In this document: positions 18,924 through 34,048 of the stretch, one piece after another
Position numbering within the stretch: position 1 is the first letter of the stretch
Layout: each line of letters opens with the position of its first letter
NCBI GenBank assembly: GCA_020250175.1
Contig: JADCEN010000031.1
Coordinates: forward strand, 1 to 37,694
From: Rhodobacter sp.
Lineage (GTDB): Bacteria; Pseudomonadota; Alphaproteobacteria; Rhodobacterales; Rhodobacteraceae
Direction of reading: 5' to 3'
Length of the DNA stretch: 37,694 bases
Translations under genes and position numbers: made by a program
The notes under the pieces: generated by a model
Told to the model about the DNA's origin: nothing
The model's input: only the letters and a program-made list of their open reading frames with translations
The model's database searches: none

Positions 18924-18998
18924 GGCCCGTTCGTCTATCGGTTAGGACACCAGGTTTTCAACCTGGGAAGAGGGGTTCGACTCCCCTACGGGCTGCCA
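18924..18998 (+). tRNA. tRNA-Glu (anticodon TTC)
   Basis: A 75-base cloverleaf including an encoded CCA end. The acceptor stem is GGCCCGT with ACGGGCT (one G-U pair at the end) and discriminator G. The anticodon stem CCAGG/CCTGG encloses the loop TTTTCAA, with anticodon TTC. The T arm is GGGG-TTCGACT-CCCC, and the D arm contains CGGTTAGGA. It reads GAA/GAG codons. The gene stands alone and is followed at once by a lower-GC islet; the tRNA 3' end was not found repeated elsewhere in the window. Confidence 0.95.
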
Positions 18999-19123
18999 AA
19001 AGATCTACGTAAGCAATTGATTTAGTTTAGTAATTCGCAAGGTCAAAAATCTCTACCCGCAATCTACCTATGACATAATGACCCCTGAAAGCGGTCTTTT
19101 GGGCTCTGCGACAGGTTGGAAAC

Positions 19124-19193
19124 GATCACGCATTCGTGATCCGGTGGCTTGCGGTGCGCTTCAGCATGACAACGAACTTCGGTGGTTAACCAC
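19124..19193. promoter_or_regulatory. palindromes upstream of the tRNA-linked small-gene operon
   Basis: Two symmetrical elements precede the small genes: GATCACG-CATT-CGTGATC at 19124-19141 (7-bp stem) and the perfect 12-bp palindrome GTGGTTAACCAC at 19182-19193. Either could be an operator, or the first a weak terminator. Both lie in the AT-richer 263-base gap after the tRNA, where no gene is visible. Confidence 0.35.
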
Positions 19194-19262
19194 TAGCGCG
19201 ACTTCGATGCTTCGCGTATCTTGCACTAAATACAGTTACTTTATGCGAGGTTAACACCACTC

Positions 19263-19445
19263 ATGGCAGCGAAGTTCAAGCCCGGCGACATTGTTCAACT
19301 GAAATCTGGCGGTCCCGCGATGACCATTTCTAGCAGCGGTTCGGGCGACAGCTACTGGTGCGAATGGTTCAAGGGCGCGTCAAAAGAGCGTGCGCCTTTC
19401 AACGAAGAAACTTTGCAGCCTTATGTTGCGCCGAAGAAAACATGA
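19263..19445 (+). CDS. small DUF2158 (YodC-like) protein
   Basis: A 60-residue protein, KFKPGDIVQLKSGGPAMTI..., ending YWCEWFKG-x-KERAPFNEETLQPY. This is the compact DUF2158/YodC beta-barrel family, whose role is unknown. It is often found on phages, plasmids and islands. The length is normal for the family. It overlaps the next gene by ATGA and is the first of three small genes in a lower-GC segment immediately after tRNA-Glu. Confidence 0.8.
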   Translation: MAAKFKPGDIVQLKSGGPAMTISSSGSGDSYWCEWFKGASKERAPFNEETLQPYVAPKKT

Positions 19446-19699
19446 CGGAAGACGAAGCCGCCCGTTGGATGCTTGCAGAGTATGAACGGGACGGTTTTCT
19501 GTATCAGGAAGCCGCCGCAAGTCACCTGTTCCAACTTCAAGATGAGACCTTGGCGTATTTCGATAAGTCTTCGAACCTATGCGTCGGCAAAGGTGTGTTG
19601 AAGATTTTCAACGACTTGACACCGGAAGCGGTTTACGAACGCGCGGGCAAGTTCTGGCGCATTCGGCTTGAAACCGACCAGCCGGGGCGACAACAGTAA
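19442..19699 (+). CDS. small conserved hypothetical protein (DUF6953-like)
   Basis: An 85-residue protein, MTEDEAARWMLAEYERDGFLYQEAAASHL..., with KGVLKIFNDLTPEAV in the middle and FWRIRLETDQPGRQQ at the end. The pattern (short helix, fLYQ, a strand pair, vLkxFxxLT, a final WRxR...PGRQQ) is the one I recall for DUF6953 proteins, whose function is not known. It is translationally coupled to the DUF2158 gene (ATGA). There is no signal peptide or membrane segment, and no catalytic motif could be recognised. Confidence 0.7.
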   Translation: MTEDEAARWMLAEYERDGFLYQEAAASHLFQLQDETLAYFDKSSNLCVGKGVLKIFNDLTPEAVYERAGKFWRIRLETDQPGRQQ

Positions 19700-19711
19700 C
19701 GAAGGTCTTTC

Positions 19712-19999
19712 ATGGACAACGTGACTTCGGACATATTGAGCGGCTTGGGTTTGGCGATAACCTTGGTCGGGGCTTGGATCACCGCCCGCGCAGTCATTTT
19801 GAAGCAAGCTGCCGCAATTCATGTCGGGGTTCCGCGTTGGGCGGGCGCGACCGACGAAGAAAACCTGAAAATGCCTATGGTGCAGAACTTGCTTGCGTCT
19901 TCGCGCGGGGCGCGGCGCGGCTTGCTGTTCATCGCAAGCGGAACCGCGCTGCAAATCGTGCCCATTGCCGTTCGGCTAGTTTCGCTGGCATTCGCGTAG
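19712..19999 (+). CDS. small membrane protein of unknown function
   Basis: A 95-residue protein with two likely membrane segments: one near the N-terminus (LGLAITLVGAWITARAVIL) and one near the C-terminus (LLFIASGTALQIVPIAVRLV), with a polar loop between. I do not recognise a family. It lies 12 bases after the DUF6953-like gene in the same direction and is followed at once by a terminator hairpin, so it probably ends the small operon. Confidence 0.6.
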   Translation: MDNVTSDILSGLGLAITLVGAWITARAVILKQAAAIHVGVPRWAGATDEENLKMPMVQNLLASSRGARRGLLFIASGTALQIVPIAVRLVSLAFA

Positions 20000-20003
20000 A
20001 AAA

Positions 20004-31016: not shown

Positions 31017-31529
31017 TTAACCGTGGTTCATCTGTCTGGCTGGTGCAGGCCGCATATCCCGCCAAAGCGCAATCCCTGCGGCCAGCACAATGGCGAGTTC
31101 CAGCAGGAAGGTCCAGTGCAGGATGAAATTCCACACCCACCAGCCGTAGCGGGCAGGCACCTCGACCAGGTTCACCTCGTAACTGGCAAAAGGCTTCAGC
31201 CAAAGGATTTCCGCCGCAATGCTGTCCAGCACCATATGCAGCAGCAGGCAGGCCAGGGCGACCCGGATGAAAGGGTAAAGACGGGTCCAGTGCAGGATGC
31301 GCGCCACGGCCCAGGCGCAGGCGGCACAGGCCACCCAGAACAGGGGCCAGTGAAAGACGTAAGCGTGGTGGACCGTCTGCCGGTTATCGACAAGGTAGAA
31401 CCAGAGCAGATCGGTATCGGGCAGAACCGAGGCGACGATGCCGGTCAGGATCAGCGCCTTGCGGTCTGGGTGACCCCTGCTCAGGTACCGCGACAGCAGA
31501 TACCCGGCGGGAATATGGGCCACAAACAT
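31017..31529 (-). CDS. YdjM-like inner-membrane protein (metal-dependent hydrolase family)
   Basis: A 170-residue membrane protein with about four hydrophobic segments. It begins MFVAHIPAGYLLSRYL and has the PDTDLLWFY acidic motif and LLLHMVLDSI, the pattern of the YdjM/DUF457 family, annotated as membrane-bound metal-dependent hydrolases. The histidine and aspartate residues in AHIPAGY, PDTD and HMVLD are candidate metal ligands. The start at 31529 is chosen because family members start right at this M(F)xxH segment; an upstream extension to 31595 is not conserved. No neighbour indicates a substrate. Confidence 0.75.
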   Translation of the reverse strand: MFVAHIPAGYLLSRYLSRGHPDRKALILTGIVASVLPDTDLLWFYLVDNRQTVHHAYVFHWPLFWVACAACAWAVARILHWTRLYPFIRVALACLLLHMVLDSIAAEILWLKPFASYEVNLVEVPARYGWWVWNFILHWTFLLELAIVLAAGIALWRDMRPAPARQMNHG

Positions 31530-32118
31530 GGGGTGTCCGGCGGTGGGTTGGTTTCTGACGGCGGTCAGACTGGCGGAATGGTGTAATCTGCGCAAGGTGA
31601 ATACAGGAGTGAATCAGGGTGGAGCGTTGTTTGTGGGCGTGGCGGGCAACCCTGCCGGAGCGCTAGGCGGCGCGGCGGGGCGGTTCGGCTTCAGGAGGCG
31701 CGAGGCCGGGTGATCAGGTGGCAGGAGGCTGCGGGGGACCGGGTGTATTCTGGCGGGGATCGGATGGAAGCGGCGCGGGTCTTTGCCGAGAATCGAGAAG
31801 GGTAGGACAGGGCGGTGATGCCACTGTCCAAATGAGAGCGGTGTAGGGAATCCTTTAGAATCATATGGGTATGGCAGGTGGACTCAAGGTCTGCAAAGGA
31901 TTAAGGAGAGGGTGCGTCTGTGTTATGGTTACGTAGTCACTCCGAGGGGCGGGCAGACCCGACATCGCGTTGAGGAAACTTCTCCTGAAAGACAAGTCGT
32001 AAGCCATGATAGAGTTCTCACTTCTGTCAAGAAGAGATCAACACAGAGCGAGATAGGCTTGGACACTCGCGTAACTTTAGGGCTAAGATGATCACAGCGG
32101 AAGCCTGCCGAGATATTC
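31530..32118. other. 589-base gap leading into the low-GC island
   Basis: No gene is supported. The composition shifts from GC-rich to clearly AT-richer at about 31850, which I take as the left edge of the acquired segment. An 8-bp inverted repeat, AATCCTTT near 31849 and AAAGGATT near 31896, lies at this transition. The promoter of the downstream cassette must be in 31900-32118, but I cannot pick one -35/-10 pair with confidence. Confidence 0.4.
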
Positions 32119-32709
32119 ATGCCAATTCCTGAATTTACGGCGCATGGCGCGTTGCCACCTTTCATTTCAGGACGTGCTACCGATGAGAGCGCACGTTCTC
32201 CTTATCAAGCCACAATGTTCGATGTGGTTAATCGTTTTTGCAACTCTCCGACACGTGCGAAACTTCTCAAAGGTCTCAACGCTTACCGCAAACATCTTCA
32301 TGCGGGAGGATTCCTTACGGGAACCCAATGGATAGATGGAAGTTTTGTTGAGAATGTTGAGGTATCACGAAAACGACCACCGAAAGATATTGATGTCGTT
32401 ACTCTGTTCAATCGGCCACTAAAGTATCAGTTCGATGCTGGTGCTTGGATGAATGACTTCAACAGCTATGTATTCCAGACCTATTTCGACACCAAACTCA
32501 TGAAGCCCAGATTCATGTGCGATACCTACCCGATAGACCTTGATGCAGGGGCGCGCGCGCTGGTCAGGAACACAACATATTGGCATGGGCTATTCAGCGA
32601 CATGCGCGATACAAATGCAAAGAAAGGAATAGTGGAAATTCCTCTCGCTGTCGACGTCATGGAATTTTCAGCCATCGAGCAATTGATTGGGGACAAGTTC
32701 AATGTCTGA
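32119..32709 (+). CDS. DUF6932-type nucleotidyltransferase-like protein
   Basis: A 196-residue protein. IDGSFVENVEVSRKRPPKDIDVVTLF (central third) has the polymerase-beta nucleotidyltransferase pattern: GS, a spacer, then the catalytic DxD in DIDVV. A third acidic residue could come from VDVMEF near the end. The N-terminus (IPEFTAHGALPPFI) fits the DUF6932 proteins I recall, so the ATG at 32119 is kept although its ribosome site is weak. Such proteins occur in toxin-antitoxin and defence contexts, modifying tRNA or proteins with nucleotides; which applies here is unknown. Base composition is lower in GC than the chromosome. Its end overlaps the next start by 8 bases. Confidence 0.7.
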   Translation: MPIPEFTAHGALPPFISGRATDESARSPYQATMFDVVNRFCNSPTRAKLLKGLNAYRKHLHAGGFLTGTQWIDGSFVENVEVSRKRPPKDIDVVTLFNRPLKYQFDAGAWMNDFNSYVFQTYFDTKLMKPRFMCDTYPIDLDAGARALVRNTTYWHGLFSDMRDTNAKKGIVEIPLAVDVMEFSAIEQLIGDKFNV

Positions 32710-33652
32710 CCTCCAAAGAATCGCTGATCTTGAACTCCAACGGCGTGAACTAAAGACACTCATAGATGAATCGCGAAGTGATGGAGACATTGTTGGTCAA
32801 CGGAGTTTTTCGGCACGCCTAGAAGCTGTCGAAGAGGAGATATCTGCATTGACCGCAAGTGATGCAATGATCGCGGAGATAGCGCTCTTGTTTGACGGCG
32901 CTCCAGTTGATGGAGGACGATCTATAGACGCGACTTTTGCAACGAAAGCCCTCCACCACTTTCAATCTATCGTCACTCGCCTTTTTTCTGCAAACCTTCG
33001 CGGCGAACTAGCGGCGCGTGGAAAGATAAGAGGTGCAGACCTCGCCGCATTGAACATTCGCGGCATCGCGACGGGGTCTTTTGGGTTCATCCTCGAAGAA
33101 AAAGATGCACTGCAGTCCAGCGTCGTAAAGACACCTTTGAGGGAAGTTTTAGAGGAAGCCGCATCGCTCTTTGACGAGTTTACGCAGGAAAGTGATGATG
33201 AATTCTTGATCAATGTTGATGACATCAATCCGAGAGTATTTAAGGCATTGGCTCAGTTTTTTGGGCACCTAGAAAGGAACGATGCTTCACTTAAGGCCAA
33301 CCTTCCCGACCGTCAACTTTTGTTTGATCGCACAGGAATATCGAGGGCGTATAAGAGAATATCAGACACAAGCGTAAAAATTGATCCAGTCACTTGGGCT
33401 GGTACGCTAGTGGGGCTTTCGCCAATTAGACGAACCTTTGACTTTAAGAAAGATGGCACCCAACAAATAATCTCCGGAAAATTCAGCTATCAAGTAAGCC
33501 AAGACTACCTTGAGCGCATCGAGAGTGACGAAGGTATCACCCTCGGAGATAGATTTACTGCAAGAATCGAAATCGGCACGATTAAGAAGCCGGACGGATC
33601 CACGAGCGTAAGCTATACTGTCACCGACTTAGTTCAGATCGAAAGGAAGTGA
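32702..33652 (+). CDS. unknown partner protein of the nucleotidyltransferase gene
   Basis: A 316-residue protein I do not recognise. Residues 1-60 are rich in charged residues and heptad-like leucine/isoleucine (LQRIADLELQRRELKTLIDE... LEAVEEEISALTA), a probable coiled coil. The middle contains IRGIATGSFGFILEEKD and an acidic helical part (LREVLEEAASLFDEFTQESDDEF). The last 100 residues look beta-rich (GKFSYQVSQDYL, RFTARIEIGTI, SVSYTVTDLVQIERK). No membrane segment, nuclease or ATPase motif is visible. The start at 32702 overlaps the upstream gene in another frame, so the two are coupled. It could be an antitoxin-like inhibitor, a sensor or a scaffold. Confidence 0.7.
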   Translation: MSDLQRIADLELQRRELKTLIDESRSDGDIVGQRSFSARLEAVEEEISALTASDAMIAEIALLFDGAPVDGGRSIDATFATKALHHFQSIVTRLFSANLRGELAARGKIRGADLAALNIRGIATGSFGFILEEKDALQSSVVKTPLREVLEEAASLFDEFTQESDDEFLINVDDINPRVFKALAQFFGHLERNDASLKANLPDRQLLFDRTGISRAYKRISDTSVKIDPVTWAGTLVGLSPIRRTFDFKKDGTQQIISGKFSYQVSQDYLERIESDEGITLGDRFTARIEIGTIKKPDGSTSVSYTVTDLVQIERK

Positions 33653-33654
33653 AA

Positions 33655-33735
33655 TTGACGGATTTTTTTGAACTGGAAAAGCTTCTCAACATCACCACAT
33701 TTCTAAGCCGGTGCCAATCGCTTCCAACGCCCTAA
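33655..33735 (+). pseudogene. possible truncated third gene of the cassette (26 codons)
   Basis: Two bases after the partner gene's stop a TTG opens a frame, LTDFFELEKLLNITTFLSRC, that looks protein-like and stops at a TAA (33733-33735) just where the sequence returns to high GC. An AGGAAG ribosome site (33645-33650) is correctly placed. This could be the first part of a third gene cut off when the chromosome beyond was joined, or a real short peptide. The evidence is suggestive only. Confidence 0.35.
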
Positions 33736-33748
33736 CTTCATCTTGCCA

Positions 33749-34048
33749 CTACGCCACCGCCCCCAACGTCGGCACCCCCGACACATCCACCTCCCGCTCC
33801 GCGTGCCAGGCATCATAGGCCCCCTGCATCCTGATCCAGACCAGAGGTTCATTTCCGAACAGCTTGGCCAACCGCACGGCGACCTCTGCGCTGACCGGCT
33901 TTCGGGTGGCCAGGATGTCGTGCAGGTGCTGGCGCGAGATGCCGAGCATGCGGGCGATTTCGGCCTTGGGCTTGCCGGTGGCTGGGATCACATCCTCGCG
34001 CAGCATTTCGCCCGGATGGGTCGGGCAGCGGTCGGGGTTGCGGGTCAT
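33749..34048 (-). CDS. higA: HigA-type antitoxin (addiction module, HTH-XRE)
   Basis: A 99-residue antitoxin. It begins with the HigA signature HPGEMLREDVIPATG, then the XRE helix-turn-helix KAEIARMLGISRQHLHDILATRKPVS, then AVRLAKLFGNEPLVWIRMQGAYDAW, the usual C-terminal helix. It binds and neutralises the HigB toxin and represses the pair's promoter. It lies downstream of higB with nine bases between, the typical toxin-first order. GC content is high, unlike the nucleotidyltransferase cassette it faces. Confidence 0.92.
   Translation of the reverse strand: MTRNPDRCPTHPGEMLREDVIPATGKPKAEIARMLGISRQHLHDILATRKPVSAEVAVRLAKLFGNEPLVWIRMQGAYDAWHAEREVDVSGVPTLGAVA

Follow-up and report, generated by a model that had tools for sequence, protein, structure and literature searches.

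A mobile two-gene unit in Rhodobacter that couples a putative DUF6932 nucleotidyltransferase to a remote relative of PDC-M63B

The locus and the limits of the unit

The window considered here is a stretch of 37,694 nucleotides from Rhodobacter sp. (contig JADCEN010000031.1, positions 1 to 37,694), in which an earlier note, made from the sequence alone, had singled out a nucleotidyltransferase cassette as a candidate new toxin-antitoxin or defence system. The two open reading frames of that cassette, here designated A and B, are present with the coordinates and the 8-base overlap that the note had given them, and the features of the locus are as follows.

32119..32709, forward strand: gene A, a DUF6932 protein of 196 residues with a polymerase-beta-type nucleotidyltransferase motif, G74 S75 ... 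D90 x D92, and a third aspartate, D135
32702..33652, forward strand: gene B, a partner protein of 316 residues with a predicted helical hairpin start, a GSFGFxLEE hairpin and a C-terminal beta-beta-beta-alpha-beta-beta unit; read as a divergent PDC-M63B
32060..32089, forward strand: promoter-like -35/-10 pair 5' of A (TGGACA, 18 bases, TAAGAT), from a pattern scan
31681..33753, no strand: inserted segment with the pair, its outer limits estimated from two genomes of the same genus

The low GC content ascribed to the pair was borne out by measurement, A and B together having 47.5% GC as compared with 65.6% in the rest of the window, and values this low or lower occur in 3 of 362 stretches of the same length taken in 100-base steps. 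HigA (TIGR02607, 3.9e-24) and HigB (PF05015 in Pfam, 5.1e-13) adjoin the pair on the opposite strand, also as claimed. We considered HigBA as a component of the unit and rejected it because another genome of the same genus, G387, carries the HigA side of the locus and lacks the pair. The optional third gene that the note had allowed for was likewise abandoned: the sole fitting frame (GTG, 33649-33735, 28 codons) is not conserved in 13 Rhodobacteraceae relatives (L008-L020), which have no counterpart of it 3' of B.

Insertion and mobility

In G387, the blocks that correspond to the window as far as 30612 and from 33754 onwards sit 172 bases apart, with HigA already standing beside the site, and in a second genome of the genus, G388, homology with the window stops at 31680. 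The pair therefore sits in an inserted segment that extends at most from 31681 to 33753. Homology to the closest relative (L008) runs from 32025 to 33652, the last position of the B stop codon, and it is at this codon that the cassette ends. On the 5' side of A, the -35 and -10 positions are kept in 14 Rhodobacteraceae loci while the further flanks differ; in this family the pair brings its own promoter. Neither an operator palindrome nor a target-site repeat was seen in 31600-33900. The GC content of the pair is below that of its flanks in 100 of the 110 loci with enough flank (median difference -0.076), and a survey of the genus found B in 2 of 7 genomes, the window's own counted. The pair is read as a self-contained mobile two-gene operon; it occupies different chromosomal sites, plasmids and prophages.

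Coupling of A and B

Searches through B yielded 69 genome loci and 41 loci on viral contigs. All of the viral loci and all but one of the genome loci (68 of 69) have a gene for A, whole or partial, directly 5' of B and in the same orientation, a recurrence that speaks against a chance arrangement and rules out the rare co-occurrence that the earlier note had named as fatal to its proposal; the sole exception, L076, has a B that is missing its N-terminal part. Judged by the record titles of the genome loci, B occurs in proteobacteria, cyanobacteria, planctomycetes, verrucomicrobia, acidobacteria, Fimbriimonadaceae and a Methanomicrobiales bin, among others. With start codons chosen by rule, the two genes share 1 to 17 bases in 107 of 116 pairs and are spaced by 0 to 119 bases in the other 9. 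The pairwise distances among A proteins and among B proteins are correlated with r = 0.88 over 77 pairs, and 1000 permutations gave at most 0.083. All four plasmid records with B also match A; two further plasmid records match A alone, one of them from Rhizobium (L006), in which the frame behind A was read as a transposase, and the other a 17% match. A match to A without B was also seen in one phage record. The proposal of a single functional unit is thus well supported by co-occurrence, overlap and correlated divergence, and from the sequences our confidence that A and B belong to one unit is very high.

Gene A as a putative nucleotidyltransferase

Protein A matches the Pfam family DUF6932 (PF22014; 1.7e-34, 119.7 bits, above the gathering cut-off of 27), the only Pfam family reached at E <= 1, as well as the PADLOC model PDC-M63A (PDLC04744; 5e-15) and phrog_9194 (1.4e-26); a comparison with solved structures gave no match. 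The GS...DID motif that had been claimed for A is there, with GS at residues 74-75 and DID at 90-92. We aligned the window's A with 77 others picked by the full length and non-redundancy of their B proteins, and G74, S75, D90 and D92 proved invariant in 78 of 78 proteins, so that the D-x-D motif does not fail in these homologues, as it might have done if the proposal had been mistaken. P28, R46, R57, Q70, P88, K169 and G170 are invariant in the same alignment, and D135 is retained in 76 of the 78.

A core in which GS, D-x-D and a further D lie on consecutive strands is the layout of polymerase-beta-type nucleotidyltransferases. The AlphaFold2 model of A (pLDDT 96) has the GS just past strand 68-73, D90 and D92 at the opening of strand 91-97 and D135 on strand 134-140, so A agrees with this layout in motif conservation and in predicted strand order. 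When the A profile was compared by hhalign with a profile of 21 minimal nucleotidyltransferases, the alignment fell exactly on the motif, at E 0.018 over 24 columns only, and five control comparisons gave E 0.14 to 0.68. Since the motif is invariant and the strand order fits, it is on motif and strands that the reading of A as a putative nucleotidyltransferase rests, and the profile comparison is suggestive.

Gene B as a remote relative of PDC-M63B

B matches phrog_18731 (7.4e-29). It is assigned to no family in NCBIfam or in Pfam, where DUF2388, at 0.8 and short of the cut-off, is all that appears at E <= 1, and at the same E value it matches nothing in PADLOC, including all six PDC-M63B models. 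With 77 aligned B proteins as queries against PADLOC at E <= 0.1, one PDC-M63B model matched 7 of them (best 8.3e-5) and a PDC-M32A model matched 10 (best 5.5e-8). In three loci, L151, L164 and L165, the partner of DUF6932 is a clear PDC-M63B protein (1.5e-154, 8.9e-44 and 8.5e-61), and hhalign matches a profile of just these three proteins to the B profile across 289 columns (E 2.4e-10, probability 96.8). Because this alignment is full-length, B is read as a full-length, remote relative of PDC-M63B, and the pair, by sequence, as a divergent subtype of PDC-M63AB, an uncharacterised phage defence candidate listed in PADLOC. The gene order and sizes of the two are equal and their first genes match, but the window's B has GSFGFxLEE where the PDC-M63B proteins that we read have GSS or GST. 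A standard defence finder misses half of the window's subtype because the models for the second gene do not reach it. Of the claim that the system is a candidate new one, the divergent subtype stands and the novelty of the pair type does not, since that type is already in PADLOC.

The start of B, which had been described as a coiled coil, is predicted to be a helical hairpin of residues 3-26 and 30-54. The AlphaFold2 model (pLDDT 91) places GSFGFxLEE in the middle part of the protein, on the strand pair 117-133, and has a C-terminal beta-beta-beta-alpha-beta-beta unit at 224-312 whose order, going by the list of strands and nothing else, looks OB-like. All 77 aligned B proteins keep G66 and F79. 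G125, S126, G128, F129, L131 and E133 are also invariant in 77 of 77, partly by construction, because the stretch from G125 to E133 served as the pattern of the genome and viral searches. No His residue is invariant or nearly so in the 77 proteins. Attempts to place B in a known family or with a solved structure produced no credible match, and weak HP1076-type matches (best 0.0027) were gone when a profile was used.

Prophage repressors and defence genes as neighbours

In two E. coli prophages, a LexA-type repressor gene is followed on the same strand by the pair, with cro on the other side. We built a repressor profile in this analysis and counted any CI-type gene on the same strand at most 1.5 kb upstream; such a gene is present at 29 of the 41 viral loci with B, at 14 of 16 viral loci with PDC-M63B, which are not independent because all were found with a single query, whose own gene stands behind a repressor, and at 2 of the 69 genome loci only. 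Clustering at 90% identity reduces the viral loci with B to 27 groups, and 16 of these have the repressor neighbour. Pfam agrees for the 41 viral loci, with S24 in 20 and HTH_3 in 9 of the remainder (positions compared by hand).

The order of a CI/LexA-type repressor gene and then the pair, all on one strand, can be read in the prophage loci L130 (14180-16484), L131 (13781-16303) and L164 (689-2879).

The place behind the repressor gene is that of rexAB in phage lambda. The prophage copies resemble rexAB as a two-gene unit behind a repressor gene on the same strand, whereas the window's copy is chromosomal with its own promoter, and no sequence relation is claimed.

Around the genome loci, 123 neighbouring ORFs matched 198 PADLOC models (1e-10), as compared with 15 models for 113 control ORFs from other genomes, a difference that these numbers overstate because many PADLOC models are redundant. 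Among the best 25 of the 198, a type I methylase model comes first (4 ORFs), and specificity subunits account for 3 ORFs. On a Bradyrhizobium plasmid (L004, 7539-10371), the pair adjoins genes for DUF6527, ThiF and multiubiquitin proteins.

Other partners of DUF6932

The search for PF22014 covered three sets of genomes: 385 from the class, of which 11 matched; 398 from the phylum, with 17 matching; and 369 from the class to which genome G761 belongs, with 5. Some genomes recur between the sets. The 31 distinct DUF6932 loci have B as the partner in 12 cases, PDC-M63B in 3, a coiled-coil-plus-HTH protein in 12 and none of these in 4. The last group comprises L162, with a whole A, L125, which has lost the motif, and L127 and L186, with partial matches; the DUF6932 protein of L125 (1489-1920) is by reading devoid of both GS and D-x-D.

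An HTH protein stands in place of B after a short DUF6932 gene in L118, L119, L120, L122, L123, L126, L152, L156, L157, L163, L183 and L184. The profile for these partners was made from 6 of the 12, all six of which match Pfam HTH_3, and the remaining ones were found by it. In L120 and L122 the partner has a match to a metalloprotease family as well, and the partners of L120 and L157 match PD-Lambda-2_B (8.8e-81 and 1e-75). The pairing of DUF6932 with an HTH protein is unlisted and looks toxin-antitoxin-like, many toxin-antitoxin loci having the same appearance. An N-terminal hairpin common to B and the HTH partners was considered and is unsupported (hhalign E 0.15). Scanning viral sequences with the L151 partner brought up no relative.

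The range of partners invites a wider reading, which we put forward tentatively and regard as rather less probable than the reading of the window's own pair given below. DUF6932 might be the catalytic part common to a widespread, undescribed family of nucleotidyltransferase modules with exchangeable second genes (the GSFGF protein, PDC-M63B, HTH or HTH-metalloprotease), several prophage lineages using it in the rexAB position for superinfection exclusion; the window would then hold a chromosomal, self-promoted version, with B as a nucleotidyltransferase inhibitor and phage sensor of a new type.

Which of the two genes is costly

Among the 110 loci found through B, A is broken or partial beside a whole B in 7 (L038, L044, L068, L069, L070, L071 and L074; the proteins of L069 and L070 are identical, and L068-L070 and L074 come from metagenome bins), and B is broken beside a whole A in 1 (L117). 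The lengths of the genes alone predict more breaks in B (P 0.007, or 0.016 without the identical copy; 0.04 with the truncated L076 added and the copy left out), although a search through B may itself favour whole B genes. In two loci found through A (L160 and L185), too, B is whole and a stop interrupts the match to A. The pattern inclines us to see A as the costly gene. In L006 and L162 A is whole while B is absent, and these two loci count against a toxic A because a strong toxin would not allow them. The suggestion that B neutralises A is thus plausible in so far as A is broken more often than B, and is weakened by the two whole A genes that stand by themselves.

A possible mechanism and its competitors

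In the reading that we prefer, while according it somewhat less than even confidence, a self-contained mobile operon of a divergent PDC-M63AB subtype acts as a toxin-antitoxin-like phage-exclusion module with A as the presumed effector. A would be the catalytic component, a polymerase-beta-type nucleotidyltransferase that puts a nucleotide on protein or on RNA, the example of MenT suggesting tRNA as an initial guess. B would bind A and keep it inactive, and the conserved beta parts of B might respond to a phage product. Infection would free A, growth or phage production would stop, and the lysogen or host would thereby exclude other phages. Confidence in the parts of this scheme decreases from the single unit, through a mobile defence or exclusion function, for which it is fair, and a toxin-antitoxin-like arrangement with a toxic A, for which it is moderate, to tRNA as the target, for which it is low. 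The scheme draws on the linkage, the invariant motif, the mobility of the unit, the repressor and defence neighbourhoods, the HTH-paired sisters and the bias of breaks towards A; against it stand a negative published test, the lone A genes of L006 and L162, the lack of an operator palindrome in 31600-33900, the failure of the A profile to match minimal nucleotidyltransferases significantly and the scarcity of repressors beside genome loci.

That published test concerns PDC-M63AB, and it is the only mention of "PDC-M63" in the literature searched. In PMC12409345, deletion of PDC-M63AB, perhaps of another subtype than the window's, from E. coli NILS69 caused no change for 10 phages. Of the systems cloned in K-12 and challenged with 15 phages, only PD-T4-3 and PD-T7-1 protected, PDC-M63AB being unnamed in that section of the paper. 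The claim of a defence or toxin-antitoxin function thus keeps its support from context (prophage repressors, restriction-modification neighbours and HTH-partnered sisters) and finds none in the activity reported for PDC-M63AB.

The roles of the two proteins might be reversed, such that B is toxic or phage-blocking and A counteracts it, either by binding or by nucleotidylation, as in HEPN-MNT and PD-lambda-2; we consider this improbable. PD-lambda-2, as described in PMC9519451, has a toxic second component from which the first gives rescue, and the sister DUF6932 genes of L120 and L157 are followed by HTH-metalloprotease relatives of that second component. PD-lambda-2 starts with a HigB-like gene according to PMC9519451, and the window's B is unrelated to PD-Lambda-2_B. 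Reversed roles would accommodate the whole A genes of L006 and L162 and the truncation of the lone B of L076, but not the breaks, which fall on A at seven loci, and again in L160 and L185, and on B at one.

HEPN partners carry the motif R-x(4-6)-H, and B, which is devoid of a near-invariant His in 77 proteins, offers no such signature of a type VII toxin-antitoxin partner. MenAT, AbiE and HEPN-MNT resemble the pair in coupling a small nucleotidyltransferase to a second gene, but neither A nor B matches any of their families, the nucleotidyltransferase and antitoxin families of AbiE and MenAT having been sought in Pfam at E <= 1.

We judge it equally unlikely that the pair serves the maintenance or lysogeny control of mobile elements, stabilising the element or tuning the repressor circuit, and not phage defence. 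Such a function would suit the position beside a phage repressor, the occurrence on plasmids and the lack of protection in the test of PMC12409345, but 67 of the 69 genome loci are without an adjoining repressor and restriction-modification genes are among the neighbours. A signalling pair of the CBASS kind, in which A would make a nucleotide signal and B would be its receptor or regulator, is the least probable of these possibilities, for although a nucleotidyltransferase has a conserved partner of unassigned fold whose invariant G66 and F79 could form part of a ligand site, no CBASS model is matched by A or B (PADLOC, E <= 1) and no further effector gene lies behind B in 13 relatives.

To return to the exclusion module that we favour, the sequences describe a real, mobile and strongly coupled pair, a divergent subtype of a predicted defence candidate, and its mechanism is one that we infer. 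No mention of "DUF6932" was found in the literature searched, and a word search there for a nucleotidyltransferase in a prophage immunity region came up empty; PMC12429752 lists PDC-M32 in Sinorhizobium prophages. A conserved nucleotidyltransferase-like protein whose partner varies between several kinds, and which often stands behind phage repressors, gives the orphan DUF6932 a testable role. If the module works, it would add to the known exclusion systems one based on a nucleotidyltransferase, and it would show such an enzyme being controlled in a new way.

Other features of the window

A gene for a YdjM-like membrane protein (31017-31595; PF04307, 4.2e-9) lies near the insertion site; it was matched in 1 of the other 40 genomes searched (E <= 1e-40) and may be a separate gain by the site. 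A second dip in GC content, to 0.533 at 19001-20000, directly follows a tRNA-Glu gene (18924-18998), and the region from 18924 to 20000, which holds short frames only, is perhaps an island at the tRNA.
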